Origin: Streptomyces camelliae
GTDB taxonomy: Bacteria; Actinomycetota; Actinomycetes; Streptomycetales; Streptomycetaceae
Direction of reading: 5' to 3'
Assembly (NCBI RefSeq): GCF_027625935.1
Contig: NZ_CP115300.1
Coordinates: forward strand, 9,255,599-9,319,598
DNA length: 64,000 bases
Shown here piece after piece: positions 30,422 to 39,656 of the stretch; position 1 is the first letter of the stretch, and each line of letters begins with the position of its first letter. Under the pieces are notes generated by a model. The model saw only the letters and a program-made list of their open reading frames with translations. It did not search any database and was not told the origin of the DNA. Made by a program: the position numbers and the translations under genes.

Positions 30422-31489
30422 TCAAACCGTCGGAGGCCGGCTGGTGCGTGCAATGAACGCGGCACGTCCTTCACCCGGCGCACTGCCCCCTGTCTGCGCA
30501 CTTGCCGCGGAGACCCAGCAGCGCAGTGACAGGTCGGCCAAGCTCTCGATGAAGTACCGGTCCGCAAGTACGGAGCCCGGAGGATGCACCTCCCGGGCGC
30601 TCATCCATTCCACCAGCAGCCCGGCAGCGCCCTGCGCCTGGCGGGGCTCGTTCATGGGAGCCCGGGTTTGCCGGCAGCGCGTTGCCCGGGTCCACATTTG
30701 ATCGATGTGATTGAGGACTTCGTCGCGAAGGGCGGTCAGTTCCTCGAAGCTGATGCGAACGAGCTTGTCGAGCCGTTCCTCGGGGGAGGTTTCCTGGTAG
30801 CGGGCCATCTGCGAGGCGTGGCAGACGGCCGCGTAATCCCATACGGCCAGGCAGTCCTCTCCGCCGTCGCAGTCGAGGTCCAGGGCGGCGGCCAGGTCGG
30901 CCATGAGCGCATGGTCGTCTTCTGGAAGTGCCAGCCTTTCCAGGCCGATCAGGACCGCCAATAGGCGGGCGTTCACCTCTGCGCGCGGCGCGTCCGCGAG
31001 GTCCGGCAGACGCCGGAGGTTGATTCGCATCTGGCGCACTGCCCTGCCGTTCTCGGACAGCGTGATTTTGGCCCTCGCCTCGGCGTTCTCGTACTCGGCG
31101 TCCATCTCAGCAGCCCATTGCGGTGGCACTGCGGCGGCCTCTCGCGCCATGCGATCCTCATGTGTGAAGCGGCGGTCGAAGTACGTGCGCGCGAGAGCGA
31201 CTTTCAGTGCGCTTTCCGGGATGTCCGCGCCACTGAAGAAGGCAAGCAGAGCCAGGTCGTCGTACGAGCGCCCGGGACTGGTGTGCCGGGCCAAGGCACA
31301 GACCAGGTCGCCGGTGCCGGGCGGGTAGACCGCCTCGGTTCCCGCGCCCCCCACGCGCTGGATGTCGGGTCGCGGGATCAGGCCGTGGCGGCGCCAGCGT
31401 TCTAGCTGGTACGCGCTCACCGGGTGGCCGGACGACGCGGCCAGAGACATCAGCTTGAGATCGGCACGACTGGGTGCACTTCGTGACAT
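30422..31489 (-). CDS. MerR-like HTH protein, 355 aa
   Basis: N-terminal ~70 residues: VSAYQLERWRRHGLIPRPD followed by GTEAVYPPGTGDLVCALARH, a MerR-type winged helix (helix-turn-helix then Y-P wing). The rest is helical: YDDLALLAFFSGADIPESAL, VKVALARTYFDRRF-like segment, ARLLAVLIGLERLALPEDDH, and AAALDLDCDGGEDCLAVWDY. No ligand domain is recognised. Similar N-HTH plus long helical domain proteins occur on actinomycete mobile DNA. It lies upstream of nothing on its own strand other than the IS3-split lipoprotein and may be co-regulated with the ParA-like gene behind it (94-bp gap). Confidence 0.6.
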   Translation of the reverse strand: MSRSAPSRADLKLMSLAASSGHPVSAYQLERWRRHGLIPRPDIQRVGGAGTEAVYPPGTGDLVCALARHTSPGRSYDDLALLAFFSGADIPESALKVALARTYFDRRFTHEDRMAREAAAVPPQWAAEMDAEYENAEARAKITLSENGRAVRQMRINLRRLPDLADAPRAEVNARLLAVLIGLERLALPEDDHALMADLAAALDLDCDGGEDCLAVWDYAAVCHASQMARYQETSPEERLDKLVRISFEELTALRDEVLNHIDQMWTRATRCRQTRAPMNEPRQAQGAAGLLVEWMSAREVHPPGSVLADRYFIESLADLSLRCWVSAASAQTGGSAPGEGRAAFIARTSRPPTV

Positions 31490-31583: not shown

Positions 31584-32516
31584 CTAGCACCAGCGGTCAG
31601 TGATGGCCTTCGCGGCCTGTTCGACGCCGGGATCCAGTGGGGAATTGGCTAGGGCTTCGGTGTCGTGTGTGCGGTGGTGATGCGTGGCGAGGTCGTAGTC
31701 GCCGACGCGGATGTGTCCCAGGAGAGGGATGCCGGCGGCGGCCATGTCGACCTCGACGAGGCGACTAAAACCTGACACGGGTTCCGCAGCGGGTTGCTTC
31801 CGGCTGCCGGTGATCATCCCGAGGAATGCGGTCGGACGGTGGTAGAGGAACTTCAGGTGCCGCTCGCGCAGGAGCGCCGCGCTCTGCTCCGGCGTGAGGG
31901 GGCGGTCGATGCGTTCCTCCGGTACGGCGCCGTGGCCAAGGGTTTCGGCGACGGGAACGCCGTTGCTCGCGGCGAGCACCACGAAGTGGTCCACAAGATC
32001 GCGTCGCGGCCAAGTCGGTTGGCCCATCAGTACGAGGGCGTCGAAATGGCGGCGTCCCAGCTGCAGGGCGTCCTGCAGTGGGCCTTCGTCAAGGGAGGGA
32101 CGACGAGGATCGGTCGGCGGGTGTGACCACGGCGTGTGCTGCTCCACCAGCAGACCGCCCCGCCCGCGGTCCCTGATGTCGGCCCGCAGCAGGGTGCTGC
32201 GGTGCCCAGGCCACGCCCGCTGCCGCTCTTCGGCTGCCTTGCGTTCCCTGGCCTTGCGCGAGTACAGCCGCAGGTCGGATCCATACGGCTTGTACTTGTG
32301 CACGAGAAGAACCCGCAGGCCCTGCTGCGCCCATGCGGACGCGATCTGCACCGTGAGCGTGCCCAGTTCGCATTGCTCATCGAAAAGGAACTGCACCACC
32401 CGGCCGTGCCGCGAAGCCGGCACCATGCGGCGACGGACCTGCGTGTAGCGCACACCAGCGGCGTCCTGAGTCTTGCGGGCACGCGCCTTCGGACCGCTTG
32501 CACCGGATTTGGTCAT
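31584..32516 (-). CDS. ParA/MinD-like P-loop protein with degenerate Walker A
   Basis: ATG 32516 gives 310 residues. The opening GRVVQFLFDEQCELGTLTVQ-IASAWAQQGLRVLLVH parallels the start of ParA/MinD proteins (strand, P-loop, helix, then the strand of Walker A-prime), but the K-G-G-x-G-K-[ST] lysines are not visible: the loop reads FDEQCELGTLTVQ. Later text includes DALVLMGQPTWPRRDLVDHF and VVLAASNGVPVAETLG, where partition ATPases have their third strand, and a C-terminal HTHDTEALANSPLDPGVEQA. A partition-related or chaperone role is possible; ATP use is doubtful. Confidence 0.5.
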   Translation of the reverse strand: MTKSGASGPKARARKTQDAAGVRYTQVRRRMVPASRHGRVVQFLFDEQCELGTLTVQIASAWAQQGLRVLLVHKYKPYGSDLRLYSRKARERKAAEERQRAWPGHRSTLLRADIRDRGRGGLLVEQHTPWSHPPTDPRRPSLDEGPLQDALQLGRRHFDALVLMGQPTWPRRDLVDHFVVLAASNGVPVAETLGHGAVPEERIDRPLTPEQSAALLRERHLKFLYHRPTAFLGMITGSRKQPAAEPVSGFSRLVEVDMAAAGIPLLGHIRVGDYDLATHHHRTHDTEALANSPLDPGVEQAAKAITDRWC

Positions 32517-32597
32517 GATGATCGATCTCCGCACCAGGGCCCCCGCTGCCCCGCAGAGTCGATAACGCGCGGGCATGAAAGAAAGGTGCGGGACCAT

Positions 32598-33025
32598 CCC
32601 TGAACCCCACGGGCCCGGTGTCCTTCGCCTGCTGCACGCCGACGCGGGGCACCGGACACAGGCTCACGGCGTGCGCAACCTGCCGCGACCACAACGATAG
32701 TGCTGCCGCATCCCAGCCGGCCTGCGCAACGCCGTACGCCCTGCACGGGGCAGGGGTAGATGGTGTGGTGTCCCGCATCGCTCGGGGCGCTGAGTGGGCG
32801 GCTCGGCCGGGCCCGTACTCTCATCCGGCGGACGTCCTTCGGGGCGATGTCGTGTGAGCTGGGGACGGGGTAGAGGGATGTGCGTGATGGATGCGGCGGC
32901 CAAGGAGGCTGCGGTCGCTCGGTTCCTCCGCGAGTACCCGCAGGTAGAGCAAGCTGAATGCGACCACCCCGCACTGATGGGCTGCGCCGATGTCGCCTGG
33001 TCGCAGATTCCTTGCCGGAGGAGTA
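32598..33025 (+). other. Region upstream of CRISPR array; possible leader
   Basis: About 430 bp. A frame from ATG 32887 (MDAAAKEAAVARFLREYPQV, then EQAECDHPALMGCADVAWSQ) is protein-like but runs straight into repeat 1 and stops at 33096, so it is probably the start of a gene truncated when the array arose or moved. The array reads left to right if the ATCGCAAC repeat end is the 5' handle, which would place a leader here; it is not AT-rich. Confidence 0.4.
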
Positions 33026-33777
33026 GTGGCGGTCGCCCTCCGGGGCGACCGAGGATCGCAACGTCCCGGCCGGGTGGATCAAGACATCCGCGATGATGTG
33101 GCGGTCGCCCTCCGGAGCGACCGAGGATCGCAACGACCGCAAGGGAGCCTGATCAGTGCAGCAGGTGCCCTGTGGCGGTCGCCATTCGGGACGACCGAGG
33201 ATCACAGCGCCTCGACCACGCGGCCGTTGGGCGGCTTCGACCCCGTGGCGGTCGCTCTCCGGAGCGGCCGAGGATCGCAACTCGGGGGAGCAGATGGCGG
33301 CGACCGACGCGAACGTTTGTGGCGGTCGACCTCCGGGGCGACCGAGGATCGCAACGACGATCAGGAACTCGCTGACCTCATCAAGGCCAAGCTGTGGCGG
33401 TCGCTCTTCGGTGCGGCCGAGGATCGCAACACGACCGAGAGCAGGACCATGCGCACAGGGGAGTGGTGGCGTTCGCCCTCCGGGCGACCGAGGATCGAAA
33501 CGCGCTGTACCCGGTCCGTCCCGCCCGCCCGCAGGTAGTGGCGGTCACCCTCCGGGGCGACCGAGGATCGCAACTACTTCGAGAACGCGCCGGGCCACGG
33601 CTTCAAGGCCGGGTGGCGGTCGCCCTCTGGGGCGACCGAGGATCGCAACGTCCGGGACTACGCCGCGCAGTGGACACACCCCCTGGAGTGGCGGTCGCCC
33701 TCCGGGGCGACCGAGGATCGCAACCGGGGCGTGGAGTAGCGCAGGGACGCCGAGGACAACGTGGCGGTCGCCCTCCC
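33026..33777 (+). CRISPR. CRISPR array, 10 full 37-bp repeats plus one partial
   Basis: Repeats begin at 33026, 33098, 33172, 33245, 33319, 33394, 33466, 33538, 33613 and 33688, with a broken 17-bp copy at 33761. The consensus starts GTGGCGGTCGCCCTCCGGGG and ends CGACCGAGGATCGCAAC; GGTCGCCC-TCCG-GGGCGACC forms an 8-bp stem. Spacers are 35, 37, 36, 37, 38, 35, 36, 38, 38 and 36 bp, all different. Repeats 3, 4, 6 and 7 vary (repeat 7 is 36 bp), and the last is degenerate, so decay is towards the right, consistent with left-end growth. No cas gene is found in the window. The ATCGCAAC end resembles 8-nt handles of type III or some type I systems. Confidence 0.95.
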
Positions 33778-34153
33778 GGGAGGGAGGAGAGGGGCGGAAC
33801 GGCAGCCCTGCCCTCACGTGGTCGAGGGACGCGCACGCCCCCAGGAGGACACCCGCGCACCGCGCCCCTAGCATGAAATTGCTGTAGGTTCGCATTCGGA
33901 GTGTCCCGTTCCGTTGCAACGACCTGGGTGTTGTCGGGTTGTCTCAGTAATGGGCCACGCCGTCGCGTCTCACAGTCCTGGCCCACCGCATGGTTACAGC
34001 CACTGCCAGCGGCGGCGCCTGGGTGGGACCGAATCGACGGTGGCGGCGCACGGGTGGTCGCGCACGGCGGAGGAGGCACTCAGCGTCGCCCGAGAACGCT
34101 TCGCCGTTCGCGTACGAGTTCTTCAAACAGCAATGCCCTGAGGTTCGGCGGTG
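33778..34153. other. Gap between array and RNAP-like gene
   Basis: About 375 bp, no supported gene. A minus-strand frame that looks like a short signal sequence near 33880-33919 runs into the repeats and is not credible. No cas remnant was recognised. Confidence 0.5.
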
Positions 34154-37100
34154 TCACCTTCGCCCTGGCTCATCCAGCCGGTGTTCGCCAGTGCGCTCGG
34201 CGAGCCATGTGGGGTCGCACAGGAGCAAGCCGTCGTCTGGCTTGAGGGGCAACGAGCCGGTGGTCAGTGCCGCGTCGGCGATGTGGTTGCCGAGATCCCC
34301 GCAGGGCAGATCGAAGAAGGAGTTCGGCGTCGTGGGTTGGCGTGGGGAAGTTGCCCTGCGCAGAGTGTCGACCGTCAGCAGGCCGGTCGCCTCCCTGATC
34401 GCCTCGGTGGTCAGGACGCTGAAGATACGTACCGTCTCGCCCAGATTCTTCCAACCGACAAGGTCAAGTAGCCCGGGCTGCACCTGCAGGGCTGGAACCT
34501 CGGCCGCCTGAACACGGAGGGCCACCATTGGCCAGGGCCCGTGGGGCAAGGCGACCAGGATCAGGGCCTGGTTGCACACCGCGTCGAGCAGCCGCATGGC
34601 TTCCTCGGCATGTTCCTTGATCATCGCCCGCGCTTCCCACCCTTGCCGGGCCGTAGCGGTGGAGATGAGCGCGTGTACGAGCAACGGCTCGACGAGATGA
34701 AGAGCCAGGTCTCGGGCCAGGAAGACGGTGTCCGGGTCGGGAACGGAATCTTTGTCGCCGGAGTTCGCCAGCTTGGCGATCACCAGTCGGGCGCGGGCGC
34801 TGTAGTCCACGGGCCGACGCAGGAAGCCGTCACGCAGTGTGCCGGTGGAGCTCGGGCGGGCCATGAGCGAGTCCGCGAGGCTGACGAGCTTTCTCCCGTT
34901 GTCGTCCCGTGTCGGTTCCGGCCGGCGGCCGTTGTCCAGCAGCGCGCTGACCTTGTGTTGGAGTAGGCGGCGTGCGCCCATCAGCACGTCCAAGGGGGCG
35001 CCGAGGTCGTCCAGGCGGCGGAGTTGGGCGGACTTGGAGAGCACCGCGCTGTAGAGGCTGTTGAGGTCGCTCCCGAGCGTCCGATGATCCTCGATGACGT
35101 GTGGTCGTAGATCCGGAGGCAGGACCGGCAGCAGCCGAAAGGTGACGGTGTCCGGGGACAGGCCGGCCGGGATAGCACCGGTGGCTTGACGTAGAAGGAT
35201 CTTCACCGCCTGTCCGCCCGTCACGGCTGTGGCTTGGGCTCGACCGGAGGTGTCGCCCCACTCCTTGACACTCAGCAACTGCCCCGTGGTCAGCGCCGTG
35301 GGGCCTGGTTCGGTGACCAGGACCAGCTCGCAGTCGGCGATCTGTTGGAGCTCCTGCTCGGTCAGCTGCAGCGAGCGTGCGAGCCGGGCGCCGGCCGGGC
35401 CGCTGAGGCACCAGCTGTGGACCACCGGCACGGGGAGTTCGATGTGGCCGAACCGACGGCCGCGCTCGTGAGGCATGGTCAGCGTGCGTCCGCAAGCGCC
35501 GCATGTCGCGCCGGCGTCCCAGGTGCGGCGGCGCTCCCCGCAGACGCACTCGTCCTCGCGGTCCGGGCCGAAGATCTGCTGGCAGAAGAGCCCGCCCGGC
35601 CACGGGCGTCTGGTCCGAACGTTGTAGAAGACTTCGCTCACCACTTCGCCGTGCGAGAGGCGCGCCACGTCGGCTTCGGCCATCGGACGCAGGCCGATCC
35701 GATCGGCTTCGAGCCGCGGCATGATGCGGGCAGCGCGCAGTGTCAGGTCGAGCCGACGGACGGCGTGGGCCGGCGAGTCGAGCAGAGCGATGGACCGGTC
35801 GCGGGGTGGGCCGAGACCTCTGCCGCCCTTCTCCAGTGAGGTGCGCAGGTCGTTGCGCCAGTGCGGACAGTCCCCACGCGGTCCGTAGATCTCCATCGCC
35901 AGGTGTCGGGCTCCGTGCGTGACGAGCCATTGGAACTCCTTGGGCTCGATCATCTGGGCGCTGTCGCTGGCTCCGCTTGCCAGCGGCTGGTGGAGGACCA
36001 AGGAGTAGCCGCCTGTGGACCAGGCGCCGGTATCGGGCCCGGCTAGGCCGTGGGCGGCGAGGCGGATCCGGATGGTGTGGCTGGCTTCGCCCGGTGGCGG
36101 GGCCCAGGGGTGGTCGGGCGCCACGACCAGGTCCGGTTCGTCGAGACTGCCCGCGAGGCGCCTGAGCGAGGGTCCGCCCGCGAGACCGCATACGACTGCG
36201 AAGGCGCCGGACTCGTCGTCCAGCGTGTCGCCGTGCTGCACTGGCTGGTCGACAGCGACGGTGACGGTGATGCGCGTCCCGGACCCGCCACCCCGCAGGT
36301 GTCGACCGGGTGTTGCCGGGATCGCGTCGGTCGCCAGGGCGCCGCTGATCCGCTGCGCCAGGACGTGGCCGGGCAGCCGTCCGGGCATCATTAGGGACCT
36401 GTTCCGCAGCGCCCTCCACAGCGCCGCGTCACCGAAGAGGGCGTACAGCAGGCGCTCCTCGGGGGTGCGTCGCGTTTCCTCATCCGCTACGGGCGAGGCA
36501 GCCCCCACCAGGAGCTGTCCGGGTCGCACTGGCCTACCCGGGGTGATCAGGCCGTACTTGTCAAGGCTCGATGCCTGCTCGGCGGACACGGTCGGCGGTC
36601 TTGAGGTGAGGACGGCGCCGTCGGGCAGCGTCGTGCTCAGCTGGACCAGTGTGGGGATCGACAGCGCATCCGGGTCTGCCAGCCGCTCGTTGACCAGCGC
36701 CGCTCTGCCCTGCAGGCTCGGTGAGGCGACGACGGTGCACTGCGCGGACACCGCACCGCGGCTCACCAGATCGCCGAGTGCGAGATCCCGCACGGTCACG
36801 CGTTGCAGCCGGCTCCAGAACCCGCGCGTGTACTCGGAACTGCTCCGATACTCGGAGCCGGTCAAAGGCCGCCGTCTGAGGGGATGAGTCTGCCCGGAGG
36901 GCCCTGCGATCATGTCCTGCCGCAGTTCATCGGTGAACCGGGCGTACCCGTTGCGGTACCCCAGCAGGGTGCGGCGCAGCAGGGCTTCGAGGATGGGCCG
37001 GAGCTGGGTCCGGCCGTCGTAGCGAAGTGTGTCCTTTAGGCCGAGGAAACGGTCCCTCTGGGACCACCGGTGCCGCGGCTCCGCGTTCGCACTCGTCCAG

Positions 37101-37969
37101 AAGACGGTGGGGGTGTCGAAGACGATCTCTCCGTTCCGTTCCCGCAGGCCGATGGGGAGCGGCAGATGCATCAGCAGGTGGCGCGCCCGCTTGATCGGCC
37201 CCTGCTCGTCCTCGAGGACGAGGTCCAGGGTGAGCGGTACCAGGAAGTCGTCGGGGCCGACTGCGCCTCGTCGCACCTGCCAGAGGTTCGCCAGGGTCAC
37301 CCTGGTCCGGCAGGTGGGGCAGACGACGTAGTCGACGGACCCGGTGCAGGTGGGGTCCGGGCAGGTGGGTGTCGTTTCGGTGATCCTGCCGTGCCCCGAG
37401 ACGGCCGTGCAGGGGCAGGTGTGGTCGTAGCGTCTGGCGAGGCCGGTCGTCCGGCCGCAGGAGCAGCTCCATTCACCGAGCTCGTACCCGGCCAGTCGCA
37501 GTCCGGTGGCGGAGGTGTCGGTGAAGAATCGCCCCAGAACCTTGTGCAGGCCGGTGTCGAGCCGCTCGTGCGGGAGCCGGTCGACCTGGAGGAACTCGGC
37601 GAACTCGTGGCAGTGCTGCTGCTGGACATGCATGTTCTCGGGGGTGCCGAAGGGGCGCTGCTCCAGGAGGAGTACCTGCACATACCTGATCAGATCGGGT
37701 CGGCGCATCAGGGAGTACGTGCGCGCGATGTGCAGATCGGCCCGCAGCGCGTTGACACCGAACATGCGCTGTCGCAGATGCCGAAACCTCTCGTCGAGGA
37801 TCGTGTCGTGGAGGTCGTCGCCGCGTCCCTCGTCCGCCGCCAGCCGGATGGCGTTCTCAATGGTGTAAGGCGTGGGGCACTGACGCCAGTTCCGCACATG
37901 GTCCGAGAGATCGGCACGGGTGCGCCCGCTGGACACCAGCGCACTGACCTCGTCGCGAATGGACCGCAT
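34154..37969 (-). CDS. Catalytically dead RNA polymerase beta/beta-prime fusion protein
   Basis: 1271 residues. Residues ~165-225 hold paired cysteines (CSCG, CPC, CPDPTC, CPTC), likely zinc ribbons. About 410-720 match the beta C-half: AALVNERLADPDAL, LDKYGLITPGRPVRPGQLLV, TPEERLLYALFGD, ITVTVAVDQPVQHGDTLDDE, STGGYSLVLHQPL. About 755-1195 match the beta-prime N-half: LSHGEVVSEVFYNVRTRRPW, GGLFCQQIFGP, a CxC-x12-CxxC finger (CVCG...CGAC), GHIELPVPVVHSW, LPPDLRP, the clamp helices (LNSLYSAVLSKSAQLRRLDD, LGAPLDVLMGARRLLQ), DNGRR and VDYSARARLVI. The active loop NADFDGD is replaced by GWKNLGE, and the beta lysines (KRK, GDK, HGNKG) by DQP, GDT and SGAFA. It starts 3 nt after the STAND gene. It cannot polymerise RNA by the standard mechanism; binding to sigma or DNA is inferred. 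Confidence 0.85.
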   Translation of the reverse strand: MRSIRDEVSALVSSGRTRADLSDHVRNWRQCPTPYTIENAIRLAADEGRGDDLHDTILDERFRHLRQRMFGVNALRADLHIARTYSLMRRPDLIRYVQVLLLEQRPFGTPENMHVQQQHCHEFAEFLQVDRLPHERLDTGLHKVLGRFFTDTSATGLRLAGYELGEWSCSCGRTTGLARRYDHTCPCTAVSGHGRITETTPTCPDPTCTGSVDYVVCPTCRTRVTLANLWQVRRGAVGPDDFLVPLTLDLVLEDEQGPIKRARHLLMHLPLPIGLRERNGEIVFDTPTVFWTSANAEPRHRWSQRDRFLGLKDTLRYDGRTQLRPILEALLRRTLLGYRNGYARFTDELRQDMIAGPSGQTHPLRRRPLTGSEYRSSSEYTRGFWSRLQRVTVRDLALGDLVSRGAVSAQCTVVASPSLQGRAALVNERLADPDALSIPTLVQLSTTLPDGAVLTSRPPTVSAEQASSLDKYGLITPGRPVRPGQLLVGAASPVADEETRRTPEERLLYALFGDAALWRALRNRSLMMPGRLPGHVLAQRISGALATDAIPATPGRHLRGGGSGTRITVTVAVDQPVQHGDTLDDESGAFAVVCGLAGGPSLRRLAGSLDEPDLVVAPDHPWAPPPGEASHTIRIRLAAHGLAGPDTGAWSTGGYSLVLHQPLASGASDSAQMIEPKEFQWLVTHGARHLAMEIYGPRGDCPHWRNDLRTSLEKGGRGLGPPRDRSIALLDSPAHAVRRLDLTLRAARIMPRLEADRIGLRPMAEADVARLSHGEVVSEVFYNVRTRRPWPGGLFCQQIFGPDREDECVCGERRRTWDAGATCGACGRTLTMPHERGRRFGHIELPVPVVHSWCLSGPAGARLARSLQLTEQELQQIADCELVLVTEPGPTALTTGQLLSVKEWGDTSGRAQATAVTGGQAVKILLRQATGAIPAGLSPDTVTFRLLPVLPPDLRPHVIEDHRTLGSDLNSLYSAVLSKSAQLRRLDDLGAPLDVLMGARRLLQHKVSALLDNGRRPEPTRDDNGRKLVSLADSLMARPSSTGTLRDGFLRRPVDYSARARLVIAKLANSGDKDSVPDPDTVFLARDLALHLVEPLLVHALISTATARQGWEARAMIKEHAEEAMRLLDAVCNQALILVALPHGPWPMVALRVQAAEVPALQVQPGLLDLVGWKNLGETVRIFSVLTTEAIREATGLLTVDTLRRATSPRQPTTPNSFFDLPCGDLGNHIADAALTTGSLPLKPDDGLLLCDPTWLAERTGEHRLDEPGRR

Positions 37970-37972
37970 CCG

Positions 37973-39343
37973 CTATCCGATCCCGGCGCGGCCCCGGAAG
38001 TACTGCCGGAACCGGTCGTGGCAGAAGCTGTACTCCTCGCTGCCCCTGTGCCCCTGCACGCCTGGCACGGCCCGCCGGTGAACAAGTAGGAAGCGGTGGA
38101 TCTCCCGCAGGATGGTGTCGAAGTTCAGCCAGGTCAGCCCTTCGACCAGGTTGTACAGGTCGAACGCGGAGAGCGTGCCGGCTTCCAGGAGGAACCCCAG
38201 GATCTCGACGTGCTCGGTACGGTGGGCGCTGCGGTTGAGCTGCTCCAACTGCTGGTCCAGGTAGCTTTCGAGGCCGGTGGGGGTGCGGTCGACGTTGTCG
38301 CGGGTGAGCATGCCGACGGCCGCGTCCTCCACCAGGAAGCGCACATAAAAAGGGTCGCCCGCGGAGACACGGTGCATCTCGGCGACGAAGTCGGCATCCT
38401 TTGCCAGTCCCGCCGCCGCACCGCCCGCCATCCGGAGCAGGTCCACGAGCGCGGCCTCGTCCAGGCCCTCCAACCGCAGGTGCAGGCCCAGGTCCGCAGG
38501 GGACAGCGCGATGTCGCTGAGACAGGACCGATCGCCCTGGGCGCGGCCCGAGAGTACGAGCACCAAGCCGTGCGGCAGCTGCCCCGGCAGCAGGGTACGG
38601 AGCTGGTCCGGTGGATCCAGTTCGTCGACGGCGTCCAGTACGACGACCGTCGGCTTCTGCGGCGGACGGGTCATGAGGCCGCGGAACTGCCGCTCCAGGT
38701 TCTTCAGCCCTCCGCCGCGCACATGGGCAGGGTCCAACTGCTCGCAGAGGCACTCCAGTACGTCCTCGGGGCTGGTGGGGTCGAAACCGCCGCCCCTGCG
38801 CCGGTACGCCTGGCTGATGAAGTGGTAGCGGAACTCGGGGTTCTGCCTGACCAGATCCGCGAGGAGGGAGGTCTTGCCGTATCCCGAGAGCGCCTCCACG
38901 AAGACGTAGCCGGAGGCGCGATCCCGTATGAACTCCTTGATCCGTGTCCTCTCGGCCTGCCGCCCCGCGAACAACTGCGTGTGTTTCTCGATGAGATCAC
39001 GGAAGAAGTCCCGTGTCGGGGGCTCCTGCCACGTACCTTGGCGGCCGGCTTCCACCGCCTGGTCCCACAGGTGCAGCAGCGGATCCGGATCCATTTTCAG
39101 GGCATTCGCCAGCGCGATCACGGTTGCCCTGGTCGGAATGTTCGGTCCGTTGAGTGCCTTGCTGACGGTGGTGTGCCCCAGGCCCGTCAGCCTTTCCAGG
39201 GCGAGCATCTTGACGCCGCGCGCATCCCGCCGATCCCGTAAGCGCTGTTGGAGCTGAGCCAACACGGCATCGCCGTCGGGTTTGCCCTCCAGGGATCGCA
39301 CCGGACCTCCTTGACGGTCAGTCATATCGATGAGCGATCCCAT
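37973..39343 (-). CDS. XRE-HTH STAND NTPase
   Basis: 456 residues from ATG 39343 (an ATG at 39325 would remove six). About 28-100: XRE helix-turn-helix, LAQLQQRLRDRRDARGVKML, LERLTGLGHTTVSKALNG, TRATVIALANALKMDPDPLL. From ~125: LIEKHTQLFAGRQAERTRIK, Walker A VEALSGYGKTSLLADLV (~150-158), Walker B KPTVVVLDAVDELDPP (~236-243), LVLVLSGRAQGDRS (sensor), LEGLDEAALVDLLRMAGG and ISAGDPFYVRFLVEDAAVG-type GxP helix (MHRVSAGDPFYVRFLVEDAA). The C-terminal ~100 residues are winged-helix-like (EILGFLLEAGTLSAFDLYNL). No WD or TPR sensor is attached. First gene of the operon with the RNAP-like protein; senses or relays a signal as a nucleotide switch. Confidence 0.85.
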   Translation of the reverse strand: MGSLIDMTDRQGGPVRSLEGKPDGDAVLAQLQQRLRDRRDARGVKMLALERLTGLGHTTVSKALNGPNIPTRATVIALANALKMDPDPLLHLWDQAVEAGRQGTWQEPPTRDFFRDLIEKHTQLFAGRQAERTRIKEFIRDRASGYVFVEALSGYGKTSLLADLVRQNPEFRYHFISQAYRRRGGGFDPTSPEDVLECLCEQLDPAHVRGGGLKNLERQFRGLMTRPPQKPTVVVLDAVDELDPPDQLRTLLPGQLPHGLVLVLSGRAQGDRSCLSDIALSPADLGLHLRLEGLDEAALVDLLRMAGGAAAGLAKDADFVAEMHRVSAGDPFYVRFLVEDAAVGMLTRDNVDRTPTGLESYLDQQLEQLNRSAHRTEHVEILGFLLEAGTLSAFDLYNLVEGLTWLNFDTILREIHRFLLVHRRAVPGVQGHRGSEEYSFCHDRFRQYFRGRAGIG

Positions 39344-39431
39344 ACAGATTCGTTCGCCCGTACGCCAGCGTACGGGGACCTCGGCATCTTCGTTCCCGGA
39401 CAATAGCCCTTCAGGGAACGGAGAAAGACCC

Positions 39432-39656
39432 ATGTTCGTCTCACTGGCCTCGCCGCCCGTGCGCGCCCTCACTGTCATTGCCGCGGTCCTCACTGCGGCC
39501 CTTCTCGCACTCCTGGCCGCGATCTCCGCAGGGTTCCTCGCCCGTTGGGACGGAGCGTCCCTCCCCGGCGCCCTCCTTCATGCAGGCACAGTTTTCGGCG
39601 CCACCCTCACCCTGCTCTGCAGCCTCATCGCACTCGGGGTCGCCACGCTGACCTGA
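39432..39656 (+). CDS. Small two-helix membrane protein, 74 aa
   Basis: ATG 39432 with GGAGAAAGACCC upstream. Helix 1 about 10-33 (ALTVIAAVLTAALLALLAAI), helix 2 about 48-72 (AGTVFGATLTLLCSLIALGV), linked by FLARWDGASLPGALLH. No signal-peptidase site. It is divergent to the STAND/RNAP-like operon with an 88-bp gap, so a shared regulatory region is possible. Holin-like or accessory effector roles are open; function unknown. Confidence 0.65.
   Translation: MFVSLASPPVRALTVIAAVLTAALLALLAAISAGFLARWDGASLPGALLHAGTVFGATLTLLCSLIALGVATLT

Follow-up and report, generated by a model that had tools for sequence, protein, structure and literature searches.

What is a catalytically dead RNA polymerase (RNAP) doing in the genome of Streptomyces camelliae? 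The question is raised by a 64,000-nucleotide stretch of contig NZ_CP115300.1 (assembly GCF_027625935.1, positions 9,255,599 to 9,319,598), called the window in this work and numbered from its first letter. It holds a gene for a single chain of 1271 residues built from pieces of the RNAP beta and beta-prime subunits (the RNAP-like chain) and, directly upstream, a gene for a STAND NTPase. That the enzyme is dead and that it has an NTPase partner are firmly established; a role in defence is likely, and the decoy mechanism set out below is a proposal.

The RNAP-like chain matched both RNAP subunits by sequence profile and by fold, which places it in the same superfamily. A trimmed beta comes first and the equivalent of beta-prime ~18-485 (RpoC numbering) follows in the same open reading frame (ORF). 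A sequence-only reading of this DNA had described such a single chain and suggested a profile search with RpoB and RpoC; the profile and structure matches to both subunits bear it out. It had also stated, correctly, that the catalytic NADFDGD is replaced by GWKNLGE, that the GDK/HGNKG lysines of beta are lost and that beta-prime ends past the active-site region: the likeness stops at RpoC ~485, with 72 more residues to the end of the chain. The bridge helix, the trigger loop and the C-terminal half of beta-prime, expected of a functional RNAP, were absent from the chain. One statement needed amending. The cysteine-rich region said to replace the N-terminal half of beta is present, but a beta1-like part (residues ~110-397) is also kept and had been overlooked. 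The parts of the gene are as follows.

34154..37969, minus strand: RNAP-like gene, trimmed beta and beta-prime N-half in one chain, 1271 aa
37640..37969, minus strand: N-terminal helical domain, residues 1-110, from secondary structure, without a reported RpoB match
36779..37642, minus strand: beta1-like part, residues ~110-397
37310..37465, minus strand: cysteine-rich insertion, residues 169-220, from cysteine conservation
36431..36466, minus strand: beta flap-tip helix TPEERLLYALFG, residues 502-513, kept
36182..36241, minus strand: beta double-psi barrel stretch, residues 577-596, GDK/HGNKG lysines gone
35807..36052, minus strand: beta C-terminal region with STGGYSLVLHQPL, residues 640-721
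34373..35704, minus strand: equivalent of beta-prime 18-485, residues 756-1199
35492..35548, minus strand: zinc ribbon CVC-x12-CGAC, residues 808-826
34931..35074, minus strand: clamp helices, residues 966-1013
34436..34456, minus strand: GWKNLGE at the site of the catalytic NADFDGD, residues 1172-1178

Eight cysteines of the insertion (169, 171, 185, 187, 203, 208, 217 and 220) are near-invariant among relatives. When the beta half was used in a structure search, two of the five best matches were flap domains, 3tbi (with T4 gp33) and 3woe (with P23-45 gp39). The chain is not the housekeeping polymerase, as had been recognised from its letters: a separate RpoC lies at 3.80 Mb of the same genome (267.5 bits) and keeps both an intact NADFDGD and canonical clamp helices.

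Homologue searches, also suggested by the sequence-only reading, gave 32 RNAP-like protein clusters (28 + 4) from Streptomyces, Kitasatospora and metagenomes, 32-87% identical to the window protein. The alignments comprised 32 rows including the window (the 754-aa fragment P0019 was excluded), with the catalytic loop readable in 31. The triad was intact in 0 of these 31; the D462 column is Leu in 31/31, the D464 column is Asp in none of the 31, and Asp persists in the D460 column in P0024, P0166 and P0167. The first of the beta lysines is gone in 32/32 rows and the second in 31/32. In a tree of beta-prime, a branch of length 0.86 (SH-aLRT 100) separated 31 dead rows from 30 RpoC; P0169 was omitted because of its frame, and the host RpoC and any actinobacterial RpoC were also outside this tree, in which long branches meet (a program warning) and several rows are of unlike composition. 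The ratio of nonsynonymous to synonymous substitution rates (dN/dS) was 0.37 (window-L001), 0.37 (L007-L009), 0.43 (L009-L037) and 0.47 (window-L036) for pairs of RNAP-like genes, and 0.24 and 0.38 for pairs of the STAND gene, rough values obtained by NG86 on GC-rich genes. These genes look to be under purifying selection. A recent pseudogene, which the sequence-only reading had named as the outcome that would refute it, was rejected because the catalytic loss is conserved across homologues and dN/dS is below 1. Judged by alignment and tree, the catalytically dead chain is an old family, dead by descent.

Next, we analysed which RNAP surfaces outlived catalysis. Positions at least 95% conserved in RpoC or RpoB rows were scored as kept where the commonest residue of the family was that same conserved residue and occurred in half or more of the 32 rows. 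The reference comprised 41 RpoC and 41 RpoB rows, an uneven sample made up of Escherichia coli and of search hits that had words in common with the family, and the regions are given by E. coli boundaries. The catalytic parts are nearly erased: in beta-prime, 1/16 positions were kept at 452-470 (active-site loop) and 1/12 at 425-440 (the RAPTLHR stretch), and in beta 0/4 at 813-835, 3/10 at 1063-1080 (lysine loop) and 1/18 at 1081-1130. Of the other parts, the rudder kept 5/6, the zinc ribbon 7/10, the flap 12/18, the lid 5/8 and the first barrel 8/24. Elsewhere in beta-prime the counts were 6/9 at 471-485, 21/34 in clamp/zipper, 13/29 in the N-terminal clamp and 12/28 in switch 2; elsewhere in beta they were 9/20 at 836-890, 1/2 at 1049-1062 and 3/11 at 1220-1250. 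The flap-tip helix is nearly canonical (E898 in 31/32 rows, L901 in 31/32, Ile, Leu or Val at 905 in 31/32, F906 in 26/32). By these aligned positions the loss is shown to be selective: catalytic residues are gone, and the chain retains several factor-docking surfaces, namely the flap-tip helix, the zinc ribbon, the rudder and lid, and a portion of the clamp. The flap-tip helix is not known to have a catalytic role, and it is the docking site of sigma region 4 and of several phage proteins. Contacts with beta'ZBD, beta'dock and betaCTR are reported for phage P7 (PMC6624301).

The neighbour that is key to function in the present analysis, the STAND NTPase, was absent from the sequence-only reading.

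37973..39301, minus strand: helix-turn-helix (HTH)-STAND NTPase, 442 aa from a GTG at 39301; start inferred from 442-aa relatives, the listed ORF reaching 39493

It ends 3 bp before the start codon of the RNAP-like gene. The same order, with the STAND gene directly upstream, was found in 7/7 loci (window, L001, L006, L007, L009, L036 and L037), the contig of L037 holding the STAND 3' end only and the RNAP-like gene of L006, on a plasmid, being cut after residue ~448. Among the 32 RNAP-like clusters, 11 shared the exact size of their longest contig with STAND hits, against 0/72 housekeeping hits, and one size-matched pair (P0018/P0115) carries the adjacent locus tags ACFV0O_28700/28705. A STAND search of 209 Streptomyces genomes gave two positives, both with the RNAP-like gene, in a sample that overlaps the one used for the RNAP-like gene and is not independent of it.

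Among 65 STAND hits, 47 and the window protein, 48 members in all, were scanned with Pfam. Their N-terminal domains were HTH_31 (14), TIR_2 (6), SIR2_2 (3), Trypsin_2 (2) and, once each, SEFIR, Metallophos and PNP_UDP_1, seven domain kinds overall. The core was constant: Walker A G-K-T-S was present in 48/48, and the Walker B D and DE in 47/48. Effectors swapped on a constant core are a recognised sign of conflict systems (PMC7159879). In the window, the conserved NTPase module reaches F499 of the 506 residues of the listed ORF and therefore leaves no room for sensor repeats. One relative with a SIR2 domain (P0145) has a frame whose continuation matches residues 1-104 of the window RNAP-like chain at 39% identity (E 1e-20), and its longest contig equals in size that of the RNAP-like P0027. 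The helical domain at residues 1-110 of the chain is probably the joint to the NTPase. A STAND protein with a helical N-terminus (P0127) was likewise paired with the RNAP-like P0167 by equal contig size. The only STAND types thereby shown to have a dead polymerase as partner are the HTH type, the SIR2 type and one unnamed type with a helical N-terminus. The NTPase did not reach the cut-offs for Avs proteins (NCBIfam Avs1b, 12.6 bits vs 1500; PADLOC Avs1b, 12 bits). Its best PADLOC match, a weak one, was STAND_TPR, there tied to cas1-less I-E systems in Streptomyces.

From gene order, domain content and the rare, patchy and near-terminal occurrence detailed below, the two-gene unit is very probably a defence-type STAND system. 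What the dead polymerase does in it is a more even question, and we give roughly an even chance to the RNAP-like chain being the decoy sensor of a STAND conflict system resembling the nucleotide-binding leucine-rich repeat (NLR) type. Phage proteins that seize or inhibit the host RNAP through the kept surfaces would bind the decoy. Its occupation would release the NTPase, which would form an active oligomer, and the N-terminal domain would then act and stop the infection. In the SIR2 version NAD would be lost. In the HTH version, that of the window, the output would be control of the divergent promoter of a 74-aa two-helix membrane peptide. The full picture we hold a shade more tentatively: a bait copy of host RNAP, without catalysis but with the flap tip, the zinc ribbon and some of the clamp surface, may be the separable sensor of a receptor that resembles an NLR and whose killing domains can be exchanged. 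It would be directed against phage takeover of transcription and would be a bacterial parallel to the decoy model of plants.

Several points weigh against this decoy reading. Binding of a phage factor is suggested indirectly, by the selective retention of surfaces, and that retention may in part be structural for the flap and the zinc ribbon. The reference sampling may favour likeness at shared words, and for RpoB it may favour rows that are alike at the flap tip. Other surfaces are poorly kept (clamp helices 14/33, beta C-terminal region 11/38), unlike a perfect mimic. The N-terminus of the window NTPase is an HTH and no toxic enzyme, and its role could be regulatory. With the TIR, SEFIR, trypsin, phosphoesterase and phosphorylase STAND proteins an RNAP-like partner was not seen, their contigs being unread, and tblastn of the fetched stretches of two Arthrobacter and Nostoc plasmids (L038 and L039), which carry STAND relatives 24-28% identical, found no RNAP-like gene. 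PADLOC left the RNAP-like chain unmatched and matched the NTPase weakly (best 2.3e-5).

The kept surfaces could also arm a weapon. The chain would then be a dominant-negative pseudo-core, triggered by the NTPase, that titrates sigma or elongation factors and halts transcription. The good preservation of the flap-tip helix, presumably the site of sigma region 4, fits such a role, and inactive enzyme copies are proposed to be dominant-negative in the conflict systems of PMC7159879. However, relatives of the NTPase already carry effectors such as SIR2 and TIR at the N-terminus, which would make a second weapon redundant, and the clamp-helix positions counted above are mostly gone, R275 and E295 among them. 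We consider a weapon unlikely.

The DNA upstream of the STAND gene bears on a further explanation, that of an ordinary host regulator.

39432..39656, plus strand: small ORF, 74 aa, two hydrophobic helices, divergent from the STAND gene
39357..39376, no strand: 9+9 inverted repeat CCCGTACGC-CA-GCGTACGGG between the divergent genes

Relatives of the small ORF (71-74 aa, two hydrophobic helices each) are found at this position in L001, L006 and L036. It was not found in L007 or L009, where a different, conserved ORF of 64 aa, not membrane-like by eye, replaces it upstream of the STAND gene (L007 9201-9392 and L009 6032-6223, both minus strand). The inverted repeat was equalled by 1/300 shuffles in the window; the same intergenic stretch is itself alignable across the window, L001, L006 and L036, and in the latter three loci it held no significant palindrome (240, 138 and 299 of 300 shuffles as good). 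A conserved operator was ruled out, as the window is the only one of these four loci with a notable repeat. As an HTH operator of the window itself, the repeat is possible and a weak candidate.

STAND transcription factors such as MalT and AfsR exist, and the HTH-STAND protein could bind the divergent promoter, the RNAP-like chain being its co-regulator and phage irrelevant. The HTH N-terminus, the conserved divergent gene for a small membrane protein and the inverted repeat between the genes in the window suit this explanation. Against it stand the SIR2 and other effector-type N-termini within the same NTPase family, and the inverted repeat is unusual in the window only. Distribution and setting also speak against core physiology. 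The gene is rare and patchy, being present in 3/392 Streptomyces and 5/375 genomes of the family, and its location is terminal and rich in mobile elements. Further samples gave matches in 2/199, 2/376 and 11/293 genomes; the samples overlap and their E limits differ, and 8 of the last 11 matches (E ~1e-13, one other genus) were taken, without check, as housekeeping RpoB. The window gene lies 26 kb from the end of a 9.32-Mb contig, with IS21 and IS3 transposases and a tyrosine recombinase within 15 kb. In G253 there are two identical copies, one ~8 kb from either end, and the distance to a contig end is 75 kb for the G013 copy and 241 kb for the G701 copy. The G253 pair (L004, L005 and L009) looks like part of a terminal inverted repeat of a linear chromosome. 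On balance, an ordinary host regulator is distinctly improbable.

A phage or plasmid origin of the RNAP-like gene was rejected on searches of phage, viral contig and plasmid collections. Matches were found in 33/50,697 phage records, none over more than 80% of the query, and the 20 listed were mainly to the beta-prime half. The viral contig collection held no relative of the RNAP-like chain or of the NTPase. Plasmid matches numbered 64 records, and among the 20 listed the one family member was the Streptomyces plasmid copy that is cut short.

The chain might instead sense nucleic acid, its clamp, lid, rudder and switch 2 gripping an invader RNA-DNA hybrid or melted DNA and signalling to the NTPase. 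These are elements with partial or good retention in the counts above. However, the barrel stretches round the active site are the worst-kept part, and one of the best-kept parts is the flap tip, remote from the hybrid; we regard this sensor as very unlikely.

A CRISPR-like array lies on the other side of the RNAP-like gene.

33020..33780, plus strand: decaying CRISPR-like array, 37-nt repeats, 72-75 spacing, 10-11 copies

That the gene is a component or relic of this array deserves almost no credence: the array ends ~370 bp from its 3' end, but no such array was seen in the fetched flanks of 6/6 other loci (L001, L006, L007, L009, L036 and L037), the same repeats recur 130 kb off at 9.157-9.159 Mb on both sides of a Cas3 fragment, and Cas1 had no match in the genome. 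The conserved tie to arrays or cas genes expected of a CRISPR accessory gene was not found for the RNAP-like gene, and the proximity looks coincidental. The tandem repeats of L036 lack spacers, and in L009 a 142-nt family recurs every 150 nt; neither is array-like.

Two more genes lie beyond the array, both on the minus strand. The one at 31584-32597 encodes a 337-aa protein with a ParA/MinD-like start and, by eye, an altered P-loop; Pfam, NCBIfam and PADLOC gave no match. Conflict systems are reported to include inactive MinD/ParA modules (PMC7159879). Between this gene and the IS3 transposase, 30422-31489 encodes a 355-aa protein without a convincing family match. Neither had a tblastn match in 11 loci, so they were not counted as parts of the system.

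If the decoy reading is true, NLR-like immunity would gain a general means of sensing many unrelated phage proteins that hijack transcription, and the decoy model would become testable in bacteria. Even without a sensing role, a selected, dead, single-chain RNAP core is unexpected, RNAP being usually deemed too constrained to copy and dismantle, and the family shows which pieces of RNAP outlast catalysis. No description of a dead beta/beta-prime family was found in search listings, often the top hits, of open-licence PubMed Central papers; an earlier report in subscription papers or preprints is possible.

Among known systems, housekeeping RNAP is the closest in sequence. The RNAP-like chain is homologous to RpoB in the beta1-like part, flap, beta barrel and beta C-terminal region, and to RpoC in the beta-prime N-half with zinc ribbon, clamp helices, rudder and switch 2. 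It differs in being one chain in which most of beta before residue 813 has no aligned counterpart. Natural beta-beta' fusions (NCBIfam PRK09603 and PRK14844, presumably from Helicobacter and Wolbachia) share the order of beta then beta-prime in one chain, but they are full-length enzymes, and the RNAP-like chain scores 167.1 and 122.9 against their cut-offs of 5372 and 4632. Avs/STAND and bNACHT anti-phage proteins share a STAND/NACHT-type NTPase with an exchangeable N-terminal effector. Avs proteins sense by their own C-terminal region, whereas here the NTPase stops just past the conserved module and a separate RNAP-like gene comes next. Conflict systems with inactive enzymes (Kaur et al. 2020, PMC7159879) and GreA/B-C systems (PMC8195603) resemble the present one in dead enzyme copies proposed as decoys and in their STAND, TIR, SIR2 and trypsin modules. 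They differ in that 'RNA polymerase' occurs 0 times in the main text of PMC7159879 and 4 times in PMC8195603, there on RNAP-associating GreA/B-C, with no inactive beta/beta-prime seen in passages of either. The bNACHT25-DnaJ guard (PMC12169576) is alike in that an NLR-like protein is proposed to guard a host process; what it guards, however, is a working chaperone and not a dedicated dead copy.

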